DNA of 39,005 nucleotides, from positions 1-39,005 of the forward strand of contig JASHRN010000042.1 of assembly GCA_030037335.1 (NCBI GenBank), read 5' to 3'. The position numbers were made by a program, and so were the translations under genes. Origin of the DNA: Candidatus Acidiferrales bacterium (GTDB taxonomy: Bacteria > Acidobacteriota > Terriglobia > Acidiferrales > UBA7541). Shown piece by piece: positions 2,225-28,303 of the stretch. Numbering within the stretch: the first letter of the stretch is position 1; every line of letters begins with the position of its first letter. The notes beneath the pieces were generated by a model that saw only the letters and a list, made by a program, of their open reading frames with translations, was not told the DNA's origin and made no database searches.

Positions 2225-4018
2225 ATGATCATTTTAGGAATCAATGCTTACCACGCGGATGCGTCGGCCGCCCTTGTTATCGATGGCCAGCTTGTCGCAG
2301 CCGTCGAAGAAGAGCGCCTCAACCGCGTTAAGTATGCTGCCGGCTTTCCTGCGCGAGCGATTCAATATTGCCTGGATTTCGCGGGAGTCAAGCCGTCGGA
2401 AATCGATCATATTGCCGTCCCTCGCAATCCCTACGCACGTTTAGTGACCAAGCTGCGTTTCGCAATGCGCATGCCGAGGTTTGCCATTGACCGCGCAAAG
2501 GTTGCAGCTCGCTTCGGCGGAATAAAGGAAGAGCTCGCATCCGCTTTTCAGATCGATCCCGCCACCATTCGGGCGCAGATCCATCGAATCGAACACCATC
2601 GTGCGCATATCGCCAGCGCGTTTTTTGTTTCTCCTTATGACAGAGCGGCCGTGCTCTCCGCTGACGGTTTGGGAGATTTCGCGAGCACAATGTGGGGCGT
2701 AGGCGAGGGTTCACAGTTGCATATCGAAGGCTCAGTCGCCTTTCCGCATTCCCTCGGTATGTTTTATACGGCCATGACTCAATACCTTGGATTTCAGAAG
2801 TTCGGCGAAGAATACAAAGTCATGGGTCTTGCTGCTTATGGCTCCCCGGCTTACTCGGAAGTTTTCTCCCGCATTGTTAAGGCTGGGAAAACGCTCGGCG
2901 TGCGCCTGAACCTCAAATATTTCACGCACCACAAGTCAGGCCCGGAAATGACTTGGAGCGCCTCCGGTCAGACTCCCGTTCTCGGAAGGCTTTTTTCTTC
3001 CGAGCTCGAGAAGCAATGCGCCCCATCGCGAACGCCGGAACAACCGATTGAGAGCCGTCACCGAGACTTTGCCGCCAGTATGCAGGCGCGATTAGAGGAA
3101 GTGCTGCTCGCGAATGTGAACTCTCTATATGAGAAAACAAAGCTGAAGACGCTTTGCCTCGCGGGAGGCGTCGCGTTCAACTGCGTTGCAAATGGAAAAA
3201 TTCTGGAGCAAACGCCGTTTGAGCAAGTTTACGTTCAACCCGCTGCTGGGGACGGAGGTCTTTCCGTTGGCGCGGCTTTTGCTGTCTATCACGAAAAGTT
3301 AGCGAAGCCCCGTTCTTTTCAGATGAACCACGCGTTTTGGGGGCCGGGGTTCAGCACATCGGAAATGCGAAATGCACTGACGAGCGAGCGCCAGCATCAA
3401 AACAGCCTTTCGGTTCGTGAGCTGGAGGAAGAGGCTCTGTTGCGCGCAACAGCAGCACACATTGCGCAGGGCAAAATTGTTGGCTGGTTTCAGGACCGGG
3501 CGGAATGGGGCCCGCGCGCGCTTGGCAACCGCAGCATCCTCGTGGATCCGCGTCGCGCCGAGATGAAAGAGACGCTGAACCGGCGCATCAAGCATCGTGA
3601 GATTTTCAGGCCATTCGCGCCTTCGGTTCTCGAGGAATGCGCGGGAGAGTATTTCGAGCAAACGCATCCCTCGCCTTTCATGACCTTCGCTTACAAAGTT
3701 CGCGCGGCGAAACGTGGCGTGATTCCGGCCCCCACGCACGTTGACGGCACCGGCCGTTTGCAGACGGTGAATTGTGATTCTCATCCTTTGTACTGGAAAT
3801 TGCTTCGCGCCTTTGGTGATTTGACCGGTGTTCCGGTTCTTCTGAACACTTCGTTCAATGATAACGAGCCGATCGTGTGCCATCCGCAAGAAGCTCTGGC
3901 GTGTTTTGAAAGGACCAAGATGGACGTTTTGGTTTTGGGAAATTTCATTCTGGAGAAAAAGTCAACCGAAAAATCGGATGATGAAGCTTCCGCTGAGGTG
4001 CTGGGAACGAGATCGTAG
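2225..4018 (+). CDS. O-carbamoyltransferase, NodU/CmcH family (copy 1)
   Basis: This 597-residue protein starts with MIILGINAYHADASAAL, the typical beginning of the Kae1-like domain of NodU/CmcH carbamoyltransferases. Visible hallmarks are the metal-binding cluster HHRAH at residues 124-128, KVMGLAAYG at 198-206, and LCLAGGVAFNC further on. The C-terminal YrdC-like domain carries GWFQDRAEWGPRALGNR at 420-436. The family uses carbamoyl phosphate and ATP to place a carbamoyl group on a hydroxyl, for example on Nod-factor sugars, tobramycin or cephamycin. Among glycosyltransferases the acceptor is probably a sugar of the polysaccharide or its lipid-linked precursor. It lies 44 bases after asnB on the same strand. 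All signature motifs look intact, so an active enzyme is expected. Confidence 0.92.
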   Translation: MIILGINAYHADASAALVIDGQLVAAVEEERLNRVKYAAGFPARAIQYCLDFAGVKPSEIDHIAVPRNPYARLVTKLRFAMRMPRFAIDRAKVAARFGGIKEELASAFQIDPATIRAQIHRIEHHRAHIASAFFVSPYDRAAVLSADGLGDFASTMWGVGEGSQLHIEGSVAFPHSLGMFYTAMTQYLGFQKFGEEYKVMGLAAYGSPAYSEVFSRIVKAGKTLGVRLNLKYFTHHKSGPEMTWSASGQTPVLGRLFSSELEKQCAPSRTPEQPIESRHRDFAASMQARLEEVLLANVNSLYEKTKLKTLCLAGGVAFNCVANGKILEQTPFEQVYVQPAAGDGGLSVGAAFAVYHEKLAKPRSFQMNHAFWGPGFSTSEMRNALTSERQHQNSLSVRELEEEALLRATAAHIAQGKIVGWFQDRAEWGPRALGNRSILVDPRRAEMKETLNRRIKHREIFRPFAPSVLEECAGEYFEQTHPSPFMTFAYKVRAAKRGVIPAPTHVDGTGRLQTVNCDSHPLYWKLLRAFGDLTGVPVLLNTSFNDNEPIVCHPQEALACFERTKMDVLVLGNFILEKKSTEKSDDEASAEVLGTRS

Positions 4019-20635: not shown

Positions 20636-23600
20636 CTAATTATCGTTGGTCAGATCGGGACCCGAGGCAACTTCAACTACCCGGGACGGCTGCTTCCGAA
20701 TGGCTTCCAGAAACAGGCTTACAAGATTCGGGTCAAACTGCGCGCCGGCGCAGCGCTCGACCTCCACTAGGGCTGCTTCCGCGCCGCGCGCTCGTTTGTA
20801 AACTCGCGGTGAAGTGATTGTGTCATACGCATCCGCGATTGCGATGATTCGGGCCCCAAGCGGTATGCGTTCGTGTTCCAGTTGGTCTGGATATCCCGAA
20901 CCGTCAAAGAACTCATGATGGTGCTTGATCATTTCGCGCACATTTCGCAGCGTGAGCAATGGCTCGAGCATCTGCCATCCGAGGATCGTGTGCGACTTCA
21001 TAGTGTCCCATTCTTCGGCATCCAGCGGTCCCGCTTTGTTCAGGATATCTTCAGGAATCCCAACCTTCCCCACGTCATGAAGCAGGCCTCCGAGCCTCAC
21101 CTCTTCAACCTCAATTGGCTTCAGGCCTGCCGCTTGGGCGATCAGTCCCGCATAGGTTGACACTTTCTTTGAGTGTCCCTGAGTGTATTGGTCCTTTGCG
21201 TCCACCGCGTACGCCAGCGACGCCATCGCATCCATCACCACGGCAGGCAACCGCTCAAAGCTGGGAGGCTGGCCGCGATCGTTCAGCGATTGCGAGAACT
21301 GTTGGACTTTTTGCCGGATTTCTTCAAACGCCGCGGGGCCTGTGGTGAATTGCCGGTGTAACATCACGCCGAGATACGCCTCAAGCACATCCCGCTTCCA
21401 ATCGGAACCATCCCCGGGCTCGCGCCGTTCCGCGGTGAAGACGGCGTTTCCTCCCTGATGTTTTGACAGATACATCGACGCATCCGCCACCTGGATCAAT
21501 TCTTGAGGCGTTGACCCGTGTATCGGGAAGCAAGCAATGCCGAAACTGGCTGTGATGTTCTTGTCGCGAAGCAATGGATCCGCCGCCACCCAGCTCCGCA
21601 GCTTGCCGGCGATTTGCCGCGCTTGCTCCACGTTCGTTTCCGGCATCAGAATGACGAACTCATCGCCGCCATACCGCGCAACGATATCGGAGCGCCGGCA
21701 ATTCTGCTCCAGAATCAAGCCCACCCGCTGCAATACGACGTCGCCCTCCAGGTGTCCGTAAAAGTCGTTCACGAATTTGAAGCGGTCCAGATCCATCAAT
21801 ACCAGCGAAAACGGCCGGCTGGACCGCGTCGAGCGCTTCCATTCGCTCGAAAGAGCTTCCATCAAGAAGCGATGTGTTTTTACTCCGGTCAAACCATCCG
21901 TGATGGCCTGCTCTTGCGCTTTCTGAAAATTCTTGGCGTTGTGCAATGCCCCCGCGAAAAGATCCGCCAGAGTGCGCAACAGCTGGATCTCCTCCTCGTT
22001 GAATTCCAGAGCTTCTGACGATTCCACGTACAGCACGCCCAGCAGATTTTCCGCGCAATTCACAGGCAAAGCGATTCCTGCCGCGGAATCCGGAAGCACA
22101 GGTCTCAGGCTTGTGGAATTTACTTGCCGTACAATCGCGATTTCGCCCGTACGTGCCACCTGTCCGATTAATCCTTCGCCGATCGGTATTCGCCGGCCGA
22201 CCGCGTCTCGCCTCTTTCCTGCCTCCACTTTCACCACCACTTCCTTATTCGCATAATCAACTTCGCCGATACCTATGTGGTCGTACTGCAAGCTCTGCTC
22301 AATTTCCTCTGCAACCTTCACGAGAATCTGTTCCGGATCGAGCGTTGCAATCGCGTGCTCCGATATTTTGTTGAGCAGCGTCAAATGACGCGATTTTTTC
22401 TGCTCTTCCGCGAAGAGCCGGGCATTTTCCAGGGCAATTCCCGCCTGGCTCGCGAGCACGCGCATCAACTCCACGTGGCCTTCGTCAAACGCTCCTTCAC
22501 GCTGGCTATGAATGGCCATGGCCCCGATCGCACGATCGTAGAGAATCAGTGGCACGCCGCAAAACGATCCCGCTCCCCGGCTCGATTCAATCCCGAGCCG
22601 TTGTATTTCTGCGTCGAAGTTTCCTCGAATCAGCAGCGGTTGCCGCTCTCGAATCATGTATTCCGTCAATCGCTTCCCCGCCGCGCGCGAACGCTTCGGG
22701 TTCCGGACCCCGTCTTCAACTTCCACTTCGTAGCGGACTTGCTGCTTGCCTCGGTCATAGAGGGCGATATAGAAGCTGTTTACATCGAACAGCCGCCGCA
22801 TTTCGGAATATATGGTCTCAAACAGAGTGTCGCTATCGAGCGTCGAGCTCAGCGCCTGTCCAATTTCATTGAGAATATGAAGTTCTTCGCTTCGCCGCGA
22901 AGTCTGCTGAACCAAGTAACTGTTCTCTACCGCCATTCCGATTTGGTACCCCAGCGCCAGCAGTAATCGCAATTCTGCGGGAGTGAACTGTCGGCTATCC
23001 GGCGTGCCAAGCAACAGCACGCCCAGCACCCGCTCCTTTGCTTGCAGGCTGATGCCCACCACGGTCCTCAAATCCTGTTCGAGCAGAAGTTCCCGGATTC
23101 GTTTGAAGGACGTCTCTTTCTCGAGCGCTTCCCACAGGACGGTTTTACCGAGGTCACGCAAAACAACCAGCCCGCCAAGCCGAGCAACAAGTCTTACAAT
23201 GTTGTCCTCAAGCTTCTCTTCCAAAATCTTTGTACTGAATTCATCGCGCAAGCCCGTTGTCACTACCGAAATTGGCCCATCGTTATCGTTGTAGCGCAGG
23301 CACAGCGCTCCGCATGGGATTCGCACCACATTCAAGACACGATCGAGCGCCTGCGCCAGCATTTTTTGAATCTCGCCCCCGATAAAGCTCGACGTCGCAA
23401 GATTCAAATTCGAGAGCGCCAGCATATTTCGCTCGATTCGATGCCGCTCTTCCTCGTAAACCGCCATCACCATCAGCACTCCGCAAAATAGCTGCGGCAC
23501 GAGTAAGCCAAGATGGAAGTCAGCGGATCGAAGCCGGACAAACTTGTCTTGCATTACGATGCCGATATTCAAAACGCCCCAGGCGATAAACGAGATTCCC

Positions 23601-24043
23601 AGCAGAAAATCCGAAGGTGACTCTCGCTTTCTTCCTTCCTGCCAGAAAACACGCGCCACCACGAACAATAGCAGCGCGCTCCCCAGATAAAGCGATACAG
23701 ACACCCAATTTTCGAAGTACGCGATCGCCCACGCTCCCGCAGCCACCGCGATTCCCAACACCACTGTCATCGGAATCTTGGACCGCGCATAGAGTCGCGC
23801 CGCCACCAGGAACAGCAGCGCCGCCATTGACACGAGCCAATCACCTATTGCGGAAATCGACGCAGCATGCGACGAGCGCGCTCCCACCACCAGGCTCAGC
23901 GACGTCAGCGCCACCAGCAGCCAGCCTCCCGCCCAAACCAGGAGATAAGTCTGCCGCTTCAATGCATACATGTAAGAGAAGAAGGCGGAAAGCAGCAGAG
24001 TACCGACTAGCAAGACGATGCCAACGATGCTCGTCTGATTCAC
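20636..24043 (-). CDS. Membrane-bound GAF-GGDEF-HD-GYP c-di-GMP regulator
   Basis: The GTG at 24043 gives 1135 residues and shares GTGA with the stop of an upstream 37-codon frame; a TTG at 24094 is less likely. About seven hydrophobic segments fill residues 5-205. Three GAF sensor domains follow (roughly 230-390, 410-560, 575-735). The diguanylate cyclase domain has an intact GGDEF at 792-796 in RYGGDEF, with an RxxD inhibitory site (RRSD) five residues earlier. The C-terminal HD-GYP phosphodiesterase has HD at 989-990 in LLHDVGKVGIP and GYP at 1050-1052 in HHEFFDGSGYP. Both catalytic sites look complete, so it can in principle make and break c-di-GMP. The neighbours are gltX (divergent) and osmC. 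A signal-dependent switch between outputs is likely. Confidence 0.93.
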   Translation of the reverse strand: MNQTSIVGIVLLVGTLLLSAFFSYMYALKRQTYLLVWAGGWLLVALTSLSLVVGARSSHAASISAIGDWLVSMAALLFLVAARLYARSKIPMTVVLGIAVAAGAWAIAYFENWVSVSLYLGSALLLFVVARVFWQEGRKRESPSDFLLGISFIAWGVLNIGIVMQDKFVRLRSADFHLGLLVPQLFCGVLMVMAVYEEERHRIERNMLALSNLNLATSSFIGGEIQKMLAQALDRVLNVVRIPCGALCLRYNDNDGPISVVTTGLRDEFSTKILEEKLEDNIVRLVARLGGLVVLRDLGKTVLWEALEKETSFKRIRELLLEQDLRTVVGISLQAKERVLGVLLLGTPDSRQFTPAELRLLLALGYQIGMAVENSYLVQQTSRRSEELHILNEIGQALSSTLDSDTLFETIYSEMRRLFDVNSFYIALYDRGKQQVRYEVEVEDGVRNPKRSRAAGKRLTEYMIRERQPLLIRGNFDAEIQRLGIESSRGAGSFCGVPLILYDRAIGAMAIHSQREGAFDEGHVELMRVLASQAGIALENARLFAEEQKKSRHLTLLNKISEHAIATLDPEQILVKVAEEIEQSLQYDHIGIGEVDYANKEVVVKVEAGKRRDAVGRRIPIGEGLIGQVARTGEIAIVRQVNSTSLRPVLPDSAAGIALPVNCAENLLGVLYVESSEALEFNEEEIQLLRTLADLFAGALHNAKNFQKAQEQAITDGLTGVKTHRFLMEALSSEWKRSTRSSRPFSLVLMDLDRFKFVNDFYGHLEGDVVLQRVGLILEQNCRRSDIVARYGGDEFVILMPETNVEQARQIAGKLRSWVAADPLLRDKNITASFGIACFPIHGSTPQELIQVADASMYLSKHQGGNAVFTAERREPGDGSDWKRDVLEAYLGVMLHRQFTTGPAAFEEIRQKVQQFSQSLNDRGQPPSFERLPAVVMDAMASLAYAVDAKDQYTQGHSKKVSTYAGLIAQAAGLKPIEVEEVRLGGLLHDVGKVGIPEDILNKAGPLDAEEWDTMKSHTILGWQMLEPLLTLRNVREMIKHHHEFFDGSGYPDQLEHERIPLGARIIAIADAYDTITSPRVYKRARGAEAALVEVERCAGAQFDPNLVSLFLEAIRKQPSRVVEVASGPDLTNDN

Positions 24044-24153
24044 CAACTCAAGGCTCCAATGGGAACTGGAAAGATCGCATTTGGAGAATAGCAAACTTCA
24101 CCTGCGCGGGCGATCTGGAGTGCGTCCACGTTGACGTTTTCTACAACGTTCAT
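24040..24153 (-). CDS. 37-residue leader or small protein coupled to the c-di-GMP regulator
   Basis: On the minus strand an ATG at 24153 lies seven bases after GAGGAGG (24167-24161), the best ribosome site in this region. The frame encodes 37 residues beginning MNVVENVNVDALQIARAGE, ending IGALSW, with one Cys and no membrane helix. Its TGA overlaps the GTG start of the large sensor gene as GTGA (24043-24040). This arrangement means ribosomes finishing the small frame are placed to start the sensor, which otherwise has a poorer site. Whether the peptide has its own function or is only a translational leader is unknown. Confidence 0.55.
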   Translation of the reverse strand: MNVVENVNVDALQIARAGEVCYSPNAIFPVPIGALSW

Positions 24154-25902: not shown

Positions 25903-26490
25903 TTATCGAGTCGAGCTGTGGCTGAAAATCTCTGGGGAAATTTGCTGCGTTTTTGTTCCGACTGAGGCAATGTCGATCGTAGTTGTCAACGGAATCCTCA
26001 CGGGCGGCAGGCATACGGAGTCGTTGCATGCCTGATATTGCAACGTGAATGGCAGTTTCACTTTTCCGAGCGGCGCGTTTGCCGCAGCGGAAATTTTCGT
26101 TCGAATCGTGAACTGGTTTGTGTACACCAGCAGAGGCTTGTCCGCAAAAGACAGTTTCTTCTCAATTCCTGCGGGGTAAATCGTTTCACCTTCCCGGAAT
26201 CCCATGGGCAGCTTCGCCGTCAGAACTGTCGGTATCAGGTACTCCTCCGATGGTTTGTGCGCATTCATGTGAAATCCAGGCATGATGCCCACCACTACGG
26301 CCACTTCAAACGTGCTGCTGCGCGGCACAGGGGCCACAGAAACGTAAATCTTCGGGCTTGCGACTTCCGACGCCGCGGGAACCCCTTGCGCACCCGTGAA
26401 TTGGGCGCAGATCAAAGCCGCTCCGCAAGCAAGCAGCGCCAGCGCAACACTTCTTCCCGTTTGCATACCCCGCGTTCTTCGCATCTTCAT
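25903..26490 (-). CDS. DsbD N-terminal (alpha) domain-like protein
   Basis: The ATG at 26490 overlaps the cyaY stop as ATGA, so it is chosen over the longer open frame. The 195-residue product has a signal peptide (about residues 10-35), then an immunoglobulin-like beta domain with GFHMNAHKPSEEYLIPT. The pair Cys155 and Cys160 in YQACNDSVCLPP matches the redox cysteines of DsbD-alpha. In DsbD this periplasmic domain receives electrons from the C-terminal thioredoxin domain and passes them to DsbC, CcmG or DsbG. Here the alpha domain is a separate gene, last in an operon with ccdA (beta domain) and a thioredoxin-like lipoprotein (gamma role). Confidence 0.85.
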   Translation of the reverse strand: MKMRRTRGMQTGRSVALALLACGAALICAQFTGAQGVPAASEVASPKIYVSVAPVPRSSTFEVAVVVGIMPGFHMNAHKPSEEYLIPTVLTAKLPMGFREGETIYPAGIEKKLSFADKPLLVYTNQFTIRTKISAAANAPLGKVKLPFTLQYQACNDSVCLPPVRIPLTTTIDIASVGTKTQQISPEIFSHSSTR

Positions 26491-26819
26491 ACGCTCACCG
26501 GAGTGCCAAGCTGTTCGCTCAAAATGCGCCCCATCACTTGGTCCAGAGTTTCGCCCGTTTTGTCCAGCACGAACGCGTTCGCACCATCCGACCACGCCAG
26601 TTTGAAGCTCGTCGTAAGCGCCGAAATCCAGATTTGCCTCACCGGAGAATTCGGGCTGATCACAAATCGCGTCTCATCTTCATCTTCAAACTGAATTTCC
26701 AGCTTCCCGCTTCCGCCCTCAACTTCAAAATCATGTTCATCGCCAAGACTGGTCAATTTCTTCTGAAGGCGCTCAAAAGCCTCGGTGTACCTCTTCTCGA
26801 ATTCCCTCTCGTCCATCAT
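26487..26819 (-). CDS. cyaY: Frataxin-like iron donor protein CyaY
   Basis: This 110-residue protein matches the frataxin fold in order. An acidic N-terminal helix (MMDEREFEKRYTEAFERLQKKL) is followed by strands GKLEIQF, TRFVISPNSPVRQIWISAL and FKLAWSDGANAFV, then a C-terminal helix starting DKTGETLDQVMG. The pattern NSPxxQIWxxxxxxxFxL...G is the frataxin signature. CyaY binds iron through the acidic helix and modulates IscS-dependent iron-sulfur cluster assembly in the cytoplasm. It sits inside the thiol-redox operon, overlapping the DsbD-alpha start by four bases and lying 30 bases after the thioredoxin-like gene. No isc genes are nearby. Confidence 0.85.
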   Translation of the reverse strand: MMDEREFEKRYTEAFERLQKKLTSLGDEHDFEVEGGSGKLEIQFEDEDETRFVISPNSPVRQIWISALTTSFKLAWSDGANAFVLDKTGETLDQVMGRILSEQLGTPVSV

Positions 26820-26849
26820 CTCGTTGGGATTCTCCGCGCCCGCAAAAAT

Positions 26850-27413
26850 CTACGATTGACCGCCGTCCACAGGAAATTTCGTCTCCTGCACGAATGGAGC
26901 GACCACCTTCTTTCCCCCGTCGTCCATGGCTACTCCCAAAATCGTAAATCCCTGGCTCGCGTACTTATTTTGAAACTCAATCAGCCACGGAATTTCCTCG
27001 CGGCACGGCTCGCACCACGTAGCCCAGAAGTTCACGAGCACTACTTTGCCTTTTAGACTGGCCAATGCCAGGTCCCCGCCCTGCAGCTCCGGAAACGTCA
27101 CGTCCGGCTCGGCGGGCTTTTCGGCATTCGGAGCGTTCGCCAGTTGCGTTTCGATGTCGCTTCGCAATTGGTTTTTCTCGACCTCGCCGATGTAACGCTT
27201 CACCACTTTTCCATCCCGCGAAATCAGTACGCTCGTTGGCAATCCGATCAGGCCGCCGAATTTCTCCGCCAGATCCTGATTTCCCAGCATGATGGGATAA
27301 TTCATCGTGTTTCCCGGGGTATGGGGCAAGGTCTTTTCCTTGCATCCGGGCAAGGCCATTCCCAGGGCAACCGCTATTCCAATAACAGCCCATTGGGGAA
27401 TCTTCATTTTCAC
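26850..27413 (-). CDS. Thioredoxin-like (TlpA/ResA) lipoprotein with swapped domain halves
   Basis: The GTG at 27413 lies seven bases after GGAG; an ATG two codons later is possible. The 187-residue product has a lipoprotein signal ending ALPGC (Cys24). In ordinary TlpA proteins the CxxC half comes first and the cis-Pro half second. Here residues 37-92 are the usual C-terminal half (MNYPIMLGNQDLAEKFGG, GLPTSVLISRDGKVV with cis-Pro59). Residues 103-187 are the usual N-terminal half (PDVTFPELQGGD, then NFWATWCEPC with Cys134/Cys137, ending FVQETKFPVDG). Both halves are complete and sum to one normal domain, as in a circular permutation. It would carry reducing power from CcdA to periplasmic partners. 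An assembly fault or a rearranged dead gene must be excluded. Confidence 0.82.
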   Translation of the reverse strand: MKMKIPQWAVIGIAVALGMALPGCKEKTLPHTPGNTMNYPIMLGNQDLAEKFGGLIGLPTSVLISRDGKVVKRYIGEVEKNQLRSDIETQLANAPNAEKPAEPDVTFPELQGGDLALASLKGKVVLVNFWATWCEPCREEIPWLIEFQNKYASQGFTILGVAMDDGGKKVVAPFVQETKFPVDGGQS

Positions 27414-27427
27414 TTGCAGGCTCCGTG

Positions 27428-28303
27428 TTACCGCGAAAAACGGTTCAGAAATCCCAGTTTACCTGAAAGCCATGTCAGCTGGTTCATGAAAATCAGCGCT
27501 CCCACGCCCAGCAACAGAACGCCGCTGAAGACTTCTACCAGATGAATGTGCCTGCGAAAACGCTGGTAAAACTTCAGAAACTGCCCAATGCCAATTGCCG
27601 TCAGCAGGAAGGGAATCGCCAATCCTGCTGAATATGCCGTGAGCAAGAGCACGCCTTTCATCACCGTCCCTTGCGTTGCTGCGAGCAGCAGCACCGCCGA
27701 CAGGATCGGCCCGATGCACGGCGTCCAGCCAAATGCGAACGCGAAGCCCATCAGAAATCCGCTCACTACTCCCGGCCGTCCCCCCATATTTCGAAAATGC
27801 ACGTCGCGATTCAGCCACCGCGTAAGCCCCGGCCCCAGCAGAAAAATCAACGACAGAGCGAACAGGTGGACAGGCCGAAAATCTCCAATTCCATCCGGAG
27901 CCGCGAACATCATGGCAATCGCGGCAGCCACTAGCAATCCGCCAATCACGAATCCAACTCGCAGCGAAACTTTCACCAGCCAGCCAAGCAGGTGCAGCCC
28001 AAAAACGACAATCAACGCTCCCGCCAGCGGCGCCAGCACGCTTCGGTGGCTTTGCAAGAATGTTCCCACCGCGCTCGCCGATGCGCCGAAGCAAATAAAT
28101 ACAATCGAAAACCCGATCACGAATGCCAGCGCTGATCTCAGCAGTTCTCCGCGCGGGCCCTGCCCTTGTTTCAATTGGTCGACGCCAACGCCCGAAAGCA
28201 TCGACACGTATCCCGGCACCAACGGCAACACGCACGGTGACAGGAACGAAATGATGCCTGCGCCCAGCGCCTCCAGTGCGTTCGCGTTTACGCCTGTGGT
28301 CAT
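27428..28303 (-). CDS. ccdA: CcdA-type membrane thiol-electron transporter
   Basis: The ATG at 28303 follows AGGTGA with seven-base spacing. The 291-residue protein has the two CcdA/DsbD-beta cysteines, Cys24 in SFLSPCVLPL and Cys196 in GWTPCIGPI, each at a membrane helix start, and a total of about seven helices. Between the two halves there is an extra stretch (about residues 105-175) compared with the usual length near 230. CcdA moves electrons from cytosolic thioredoxin across the membrane to periplasmic thioredoxin-like proteins for cytochrome c maturation or disulfide reduction. It is the first gene of the operon, with the thioredoxin-like lipoprotein 14 bases downstream. Confidence 0.93.
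   Translation of the reverse strand: MTTGVNANALEALGAGIISFLSPCVLPLVPGYVSMLSGVGVDQLKQGQGPRGELLRSALAFVIGFSIVFICFGASASAVGTFLQSHRSVLAPLAGALIVVFGLHLLGWLVKVSLRVGFVIGGLLVAAAIAMMFAAPDGIGDFRPVHLFALSLIFLLGPGLTRWLNRDVHFRNMGGRPGVVSGFLMGFAFAFGWTPCIGPILSAVLLLAATQGTVMKGVLLLTAYSAGLAIPFLLTAIGIGQFLKFYQRFRRHIHLVEVFSGVLLLGVGALIFMNQLTWLSGKLGFLNRFSR

Follow-up and report, generated by a model that had tools for sequence, protein, structure and literature searches.

A natural circular permutation at the tlpA locus of a Candidatus Acidiferrales bacterium, with a probably independent counterpart in a second genus

The TlpA/ResA-type oxidoreductases, such as Bradyrhizobium TlpA (1jfu), Bacillus ResA (1st9) and the Geobacter protein 3kcm, have a WCxPC active site, a cis-Pro loop, a Redoxin/AhpC-TSA profile and membrane anchoring, and the protein described here shares the first three, its signal and lipobox suggesting that it would be anchored as well. 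DsbD holds its alpha, transmembrane and gamma parts in one protein, whereas the gene cluster under study has a DsbD_N protein, a DsbD_TM/CcdA protein and a thioredoxin-like arm as separate products. Natural circular permutants have been reviewed for the saposins and swaposins, the DNA methyltransferases and the transhydrogenases, and duplication is an accepted route by which a permutation can arise (PMC3320104). Permuted thioredoxin-like folds have been mentioned (PMC3091736), and DsbB and VKOR are regarded as permuted relatives of each other (PMC4555120).

The window, meaning the whole 39,005-nucleotide stretch that was analysed (contig JASHRN010000042.1 of assembly GCA_030037335.1), carries on its minus strand, at 26850-27413, an open reading frame of 187 amino acids that starts with GTG and has an in-frame ATG two codons on. 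Along this frame lie a lipoprotein signal, then the C-half of a TlpA/Redoxin domain with the cis-Pro, and then the N-half with WCEPC (Table 1). This is the layout claimed in the initial annotation, whose coordinates and motifs were correct to one or two residues. The signal and the LPGC lipobox, a non-classical form, were read by eye. Both of the catalytic elements that had been named are present: the active site has Cys134 (27012-27014) and Cys137 (27003-27005) within NFWATWCEPC (residues 128-137), and the cis-Pro motif GLPTS, with Pro59 at 27237-27239, lines up with the corresponding loop of relatives.

Table 1. Features of the permuted gene and its neighbours in the window.
Feature	Coordinates	Strand	Basis or remark
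Signal peptide and lipobox, residues 1-24	27342..27413	-	Sequence; LPGC, with Cys24 as the presumed lipidated residue; lipobox at the equivalent place in relatives
Native linker part 1 (L1), KEKTLPHTPGN, residues 25-35	27309..27341	-	L1+L2 compared with the single linker of G002, G003 and G004
C-half, placed first, residues 36-91 (TMNYPIML...GLPTS...SDIETQL)	27141..27308	-	Redoxin positions 88-148
Native linker part 2 (L2), ANAPNAEKPAE, residues 92-102	27108..27140	-	Alignment with native linkers
N-half, placed last, residues 103-184 (PDVTFPEL...NFWATWCEPC...FPVDG)	26862..27107	-	Redoxin positions 3-76
Tail GQS and stop	26850..26861	-	Native C-terminus and stop probably retained (...HS* in relatives); native intergenic DNA next
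ccdA / DsbD transmembrane-domain gene, directly upstream	27428..28303	-	PF02683; adjoins tlpA in 12/12 mapped loci
cyaY (frataxin), downstream	26487..26819	-	TIGR03421 over cut-off, PF01491
DsbD N-terminal (alpha) domain protein	25903..26595	-	PF11412

In its native order, the chain matched Pfam Redoxin in two separate stretches, the best being 98-168, and the ResA-like and StoA-like NCBIfam models split across the protein in the same way; Redoxin and AhpC-TSA were both above the cut-off. When the halves were searched separately, as had been proposed, they matched complementary parts of the 148-position Redoxin model: 88-148 in the case of the C-half (E = 2.7e-4), 3-76 in that of the N-half (E = 7e-15). 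Restoring them to normal order gave a single continuous match over 7-148/148 (77.3 bits), which bears out the earlier view that the two halves together make one complete domain, and the re-ordered chain matched PDB entries over residues 1-128, with 3kcm as the best (E = 3.4e-24). The halves are 79-88% identical to those of normal-order genes in the closest relative, G002, and the permuted layout is therefore not a matter of chance. The C-half reaches 88% identity with that of the normal-order gene G002b, and the N-half 84-85% with those of the normal-order genes G002b and G001.

Each of the other four genomes in the genus (G001-G004) has a normal-order tlpA at the same syntenic spot, and the window locus was therefore rearranged in situ. 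These relatives, together with an independent second permutant, support the natural circular permutation that the initial annotation had proposed. Its statement that no leftover halves lie outside the gene also stands. One of the relatives, G002, has two diverged ccdA-tlpA-cyaY copies in its assembly (L150 and L151, on contigs C361 and C322), from either duplication or mixed strains.

A search for homologues sharing the swapped order, which had been suggested, found one. Locus L010 of G031, a genome from a different genus of the family, has a permuted tlpA at the orthologous position, in which the halves are ordered alike and the cut falls in the same hairpin; its protein ends in ...FDVTG* at the hairpin homologous to the window cut and is 51% identical to the window permutant. 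On both flanks the G031 DNA is collinear with that of its congener G022 (about 82-84% identity), the two differing just in how the blocks are ordered within the gene. The 3' ends of the two permutants are unlike each other, in that the window gene apparently retains the native C-terminal residues, stop and intergenic DNA, whereas in G031 the native stop is missing, along with some 100 bp of intergenic DNA, and a new TAG ends the frame. In G031 the C-half (L010 residues 40-95) has a branch of 0.24 versus 0.099 for the N-half, a lengthening that could reflect relaxation.

The window gene and that of G031 were the only permutants found among the 89 genomes of the family. A profile built in the permuted order (A1) was also run against larger samples, 399 genomes for the class and 396 for the phylum, where, among the matches listed, only these two were full-length. 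Longer partial matches in G643, G732 and G352 were considered as permutants and proved on reading to have the normal order. A scan of viral contigs gave one short match only. The contig scan for permuted genes, made with an ORF-order script, returned normal order only; its imperfect motif pattern flagged many normal genes as being without the C motif, and those were read by eye. Close relatives with named records are metagenome genomes of Candidatus Acidiferrales and other Acidobacteriota.

The linker gives an account of where the C-half came to lie. When the two linker parts of the window protein are joined (26 residues, counted from Cys24), they align from one end to the other with the undivided native linker (29 residues) of G002a, and none of 2000 shuffles aligned as well with the linkers of G002 (G002a and G002b), G003 or G004, which was not so for G001. 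A similar split of the linker was seen in G031, in a comparison made without shuffling. Since the joined parts match a single native linker, the C-half lies within what used to be one linker. The strand, cis-Pro loop, strand and last helix that make up the C-half are now found between the lipobox and the rest of the domain, and the permuted chain ends at a hairpin loop of the normal protein (V-D/N-G-x). The tail and stop region of the window gene look homologous to the native ones. In G031, the junctions GGCGCGATGG and GGCGCCATGG are alike by eye, a likeness that might reflect microhomology.

Two routes would lead to this arrangement, namely an in-frame duplication after which the first N-half and the second C-half were lost (route A), or relocation of the C-half straight into the linker (route B). 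The initial annotation had suggested tandem duplication with loss of the outer halves. That proposal fits what was found, the tandem tlpA pairs beside ccdA in G015 and G056 showing that duplication happens at this locus, and a direct move of the C-half fits equally; the linker evidence is as compatible with one route as with the other. The tandem normal-order pairs (L158 of G015, 2559-3765; L159 of G056, 2829-3879) may represent a stage toward permutation.

The order amidase-ccdA-tlpA-cyaY-dsbD_N-gltX is found in the window and in its relatives, with gltX downstream on the opposite strand and the amidase gene and lptD farther upstream of ccdA. As listed, the DsbD_N frame runs into cyaY, and its start is possibly set too far upstream. 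Window positions 25903-28303 thus hold a split DsbD cluster of CcdA/DsbD-TM, thioredoxin-like lipoprotein and DsbD_N, with cyaY in the middle, an arrangement also present at several loci of the family. Elsewhere in the window (20636-24094), a 1152-aa ORF has GAF-like, GGDEF and HD-GYP-type motifs by eye. By analogy with DsbD and TlpA, and from the gene neighbourhood, the lipid-anchored permutant would take electrons from CcdA/DsbD-TM, its likely donor, and pass them to periplasmic clients, of which the DsbD-alpha-like protein is a possible acceptor. Both permutants come from fragmented draft genomes, the window genome being 87% and G031 85% complete. Neither of these incomplete assemblies contains a normal-order copy of the locus, and for this reason the permutant most likely serves a split DsbD-type pathway as its thioredoxin-like arm.

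Structure prediction had been put forward as a way to see whether the permuted chain closes into one fold. AlphaFold2 models of the mature protein had a pTM of 0.71 with 25 alignment rows, and a pTM of 0.79 with a mean pLDDT of 81 with 41 rows; the row sets were picked by alignment position and not by model outcome, and the rows were half-domain fragments, so that the window protein alone crosses the junction. With Foldseek and VIA-align, only the N-half was matched to ResA/TlpA-like structures, with low scores (VIA Z ~5), as is to be expected when sequential aligners meet a permuted chain. The higher pTM is consistent with a single domain, and by that measure the models support closure of the chain as one TlpA-type thioredoxin domain, in which WCEPC would pack on the cis-Pro. 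In both halves, nonsynonymous changes relative to the sisters were far fewer than synonymous ones, with dN/dS well under 1, although these ratios are rough because synonymous sites are near saturation. The sisters used for this measure of selection diverged ahead of the permutation, and for that reason it does not prove function afterwards. The permuted protein is likely to work.

Because both draft assemblies are of the metagenome type, and the order is normal in all close relatives, it has to be considered that an assembler swapped the halves of a gene whose true order is normal. That is very unlikely. Given independent origins, an artefact would require the same in-frame error to have been made twice, the second time in a genus whose protein is 51% identical and has the same permutation and the same cut. 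Every junction is in frame, the C-half has no stop of its own and reads through into the linker, the 3' end was made differently in the two cases, as described above, and no long repeat was seen by eye at the junctions. The identical architecture and cut could instead point to one ancestral permutation, either spread by horizontal transfer or kept from the ancestor of the family, and this is likewise very unlikely. In a tree of 48 domains with the halves in normal order, the window domain grouped with G002 (97/90) and that of G031 with G022 and G010 (100/97), each permutant thus belonging with its own genus. A joint clade of both was rejected by the AU test on this tree (p = 1.7e-28) and for each half (N-half, p = 0.005; C-half, p = 1.6e-4), with the half-trees being poorly resolved, and a single origin by descent or transfer was rejected on these grounds. 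The gene neighbours are, moreover, collinear with those of congeners, and descent from an ancestral permutation would call for numerous reversions, as the listed matches of the searched genomes included no further permuted locus. The phylogenetic tests thus point firmly to two independent permutations at the same cut in two genera of one family.

What the product does is also subject to alternatives. The permuted gene could be a functionless, decaying remnant whose job is done by another thioredoxin-like protein, given that the window genome has other Redoxin-family proteins, that the C-half branch of G031 is long and that divergence alone cannot date the permutation. The idea is improbable, as both permutants have intact reading frames with CxxC and cis-Pro kept, the dN/dS ratios of both halves speak against decay, the predicted fold is confident and the gene cluster conserved, and the closest other homologue in the window genome is only 44-51% identical. 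Circular permutants can domain-swap, and the short linker between the halves would suit a dimer in which each domain is formed from the N-half of one chain and the C-half of another. Such a dimer is likewise improbable, in view of the single-chain AlphaFold2 model at the higher pTM and of the linker segment of about 11 residues that is retained between the halves. Taken as a whole, the evidence is explained best, and with good confidence, by a genuine natural TlpA/DsbD-gamma-like permutant that arose in situ, would fold as one domain and would take part in disulfide exchange.

As a rule, natural circular permutation is deduced by comparing distant proteins when the event is long past, and the present locus is a rare case in which one has been caught at the original chromosomal position of the gene. 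The normal gene, the flanks, the two linker parts and what looks like the native stop region can all be read, and there are two independent replicates that share the cut, so that the DNA steps, the need for functional intermediates and the reason why one cut is favoured become testable. It also carries a warning, in that profile searches score such permutants as half-domains. It seems probable that one orthologous gene was permuted twice independently, in the same loop and within one bacterial family, which would make the TlpA locus a natural system with recurring permutation. Such recurrence would be expected if the swap is tolerated owing to a permissive hairpin and a long linker, and the new topology may possibly have been favoured.

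The literature searched, outside which most subscription papers lie, yielded no account of natural circular permutation in a TlpA. Unlike 1jfu, 1st9 and 3kcm, the window chain has its halves in the opposite order, with its termini in the hairpin just before the strand leading to the cis-Pro loop. In Candidatus Acidiferrales-type genomes (e.g., G001, G002 and G022), the normal-order TlpA has the same locus, linker and neighbours, with up to 88% identity per half, and differs in order. Compared with DsbD, the thioredoxin-like arm of the window cluster is permuted. The saposin/swaposin, methyltransferase, transhydrogenase and DsbB/VKOR cases relate distant proteins, whereas the TlpA case concerns one orthologous locus, with the normal order in the same genus, and does so twice. 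The novelty lies in a permutation that is recent, that affects an orthologous locus whose normal-order form occurs in the same genus, and that was repeated independently at the same cut.
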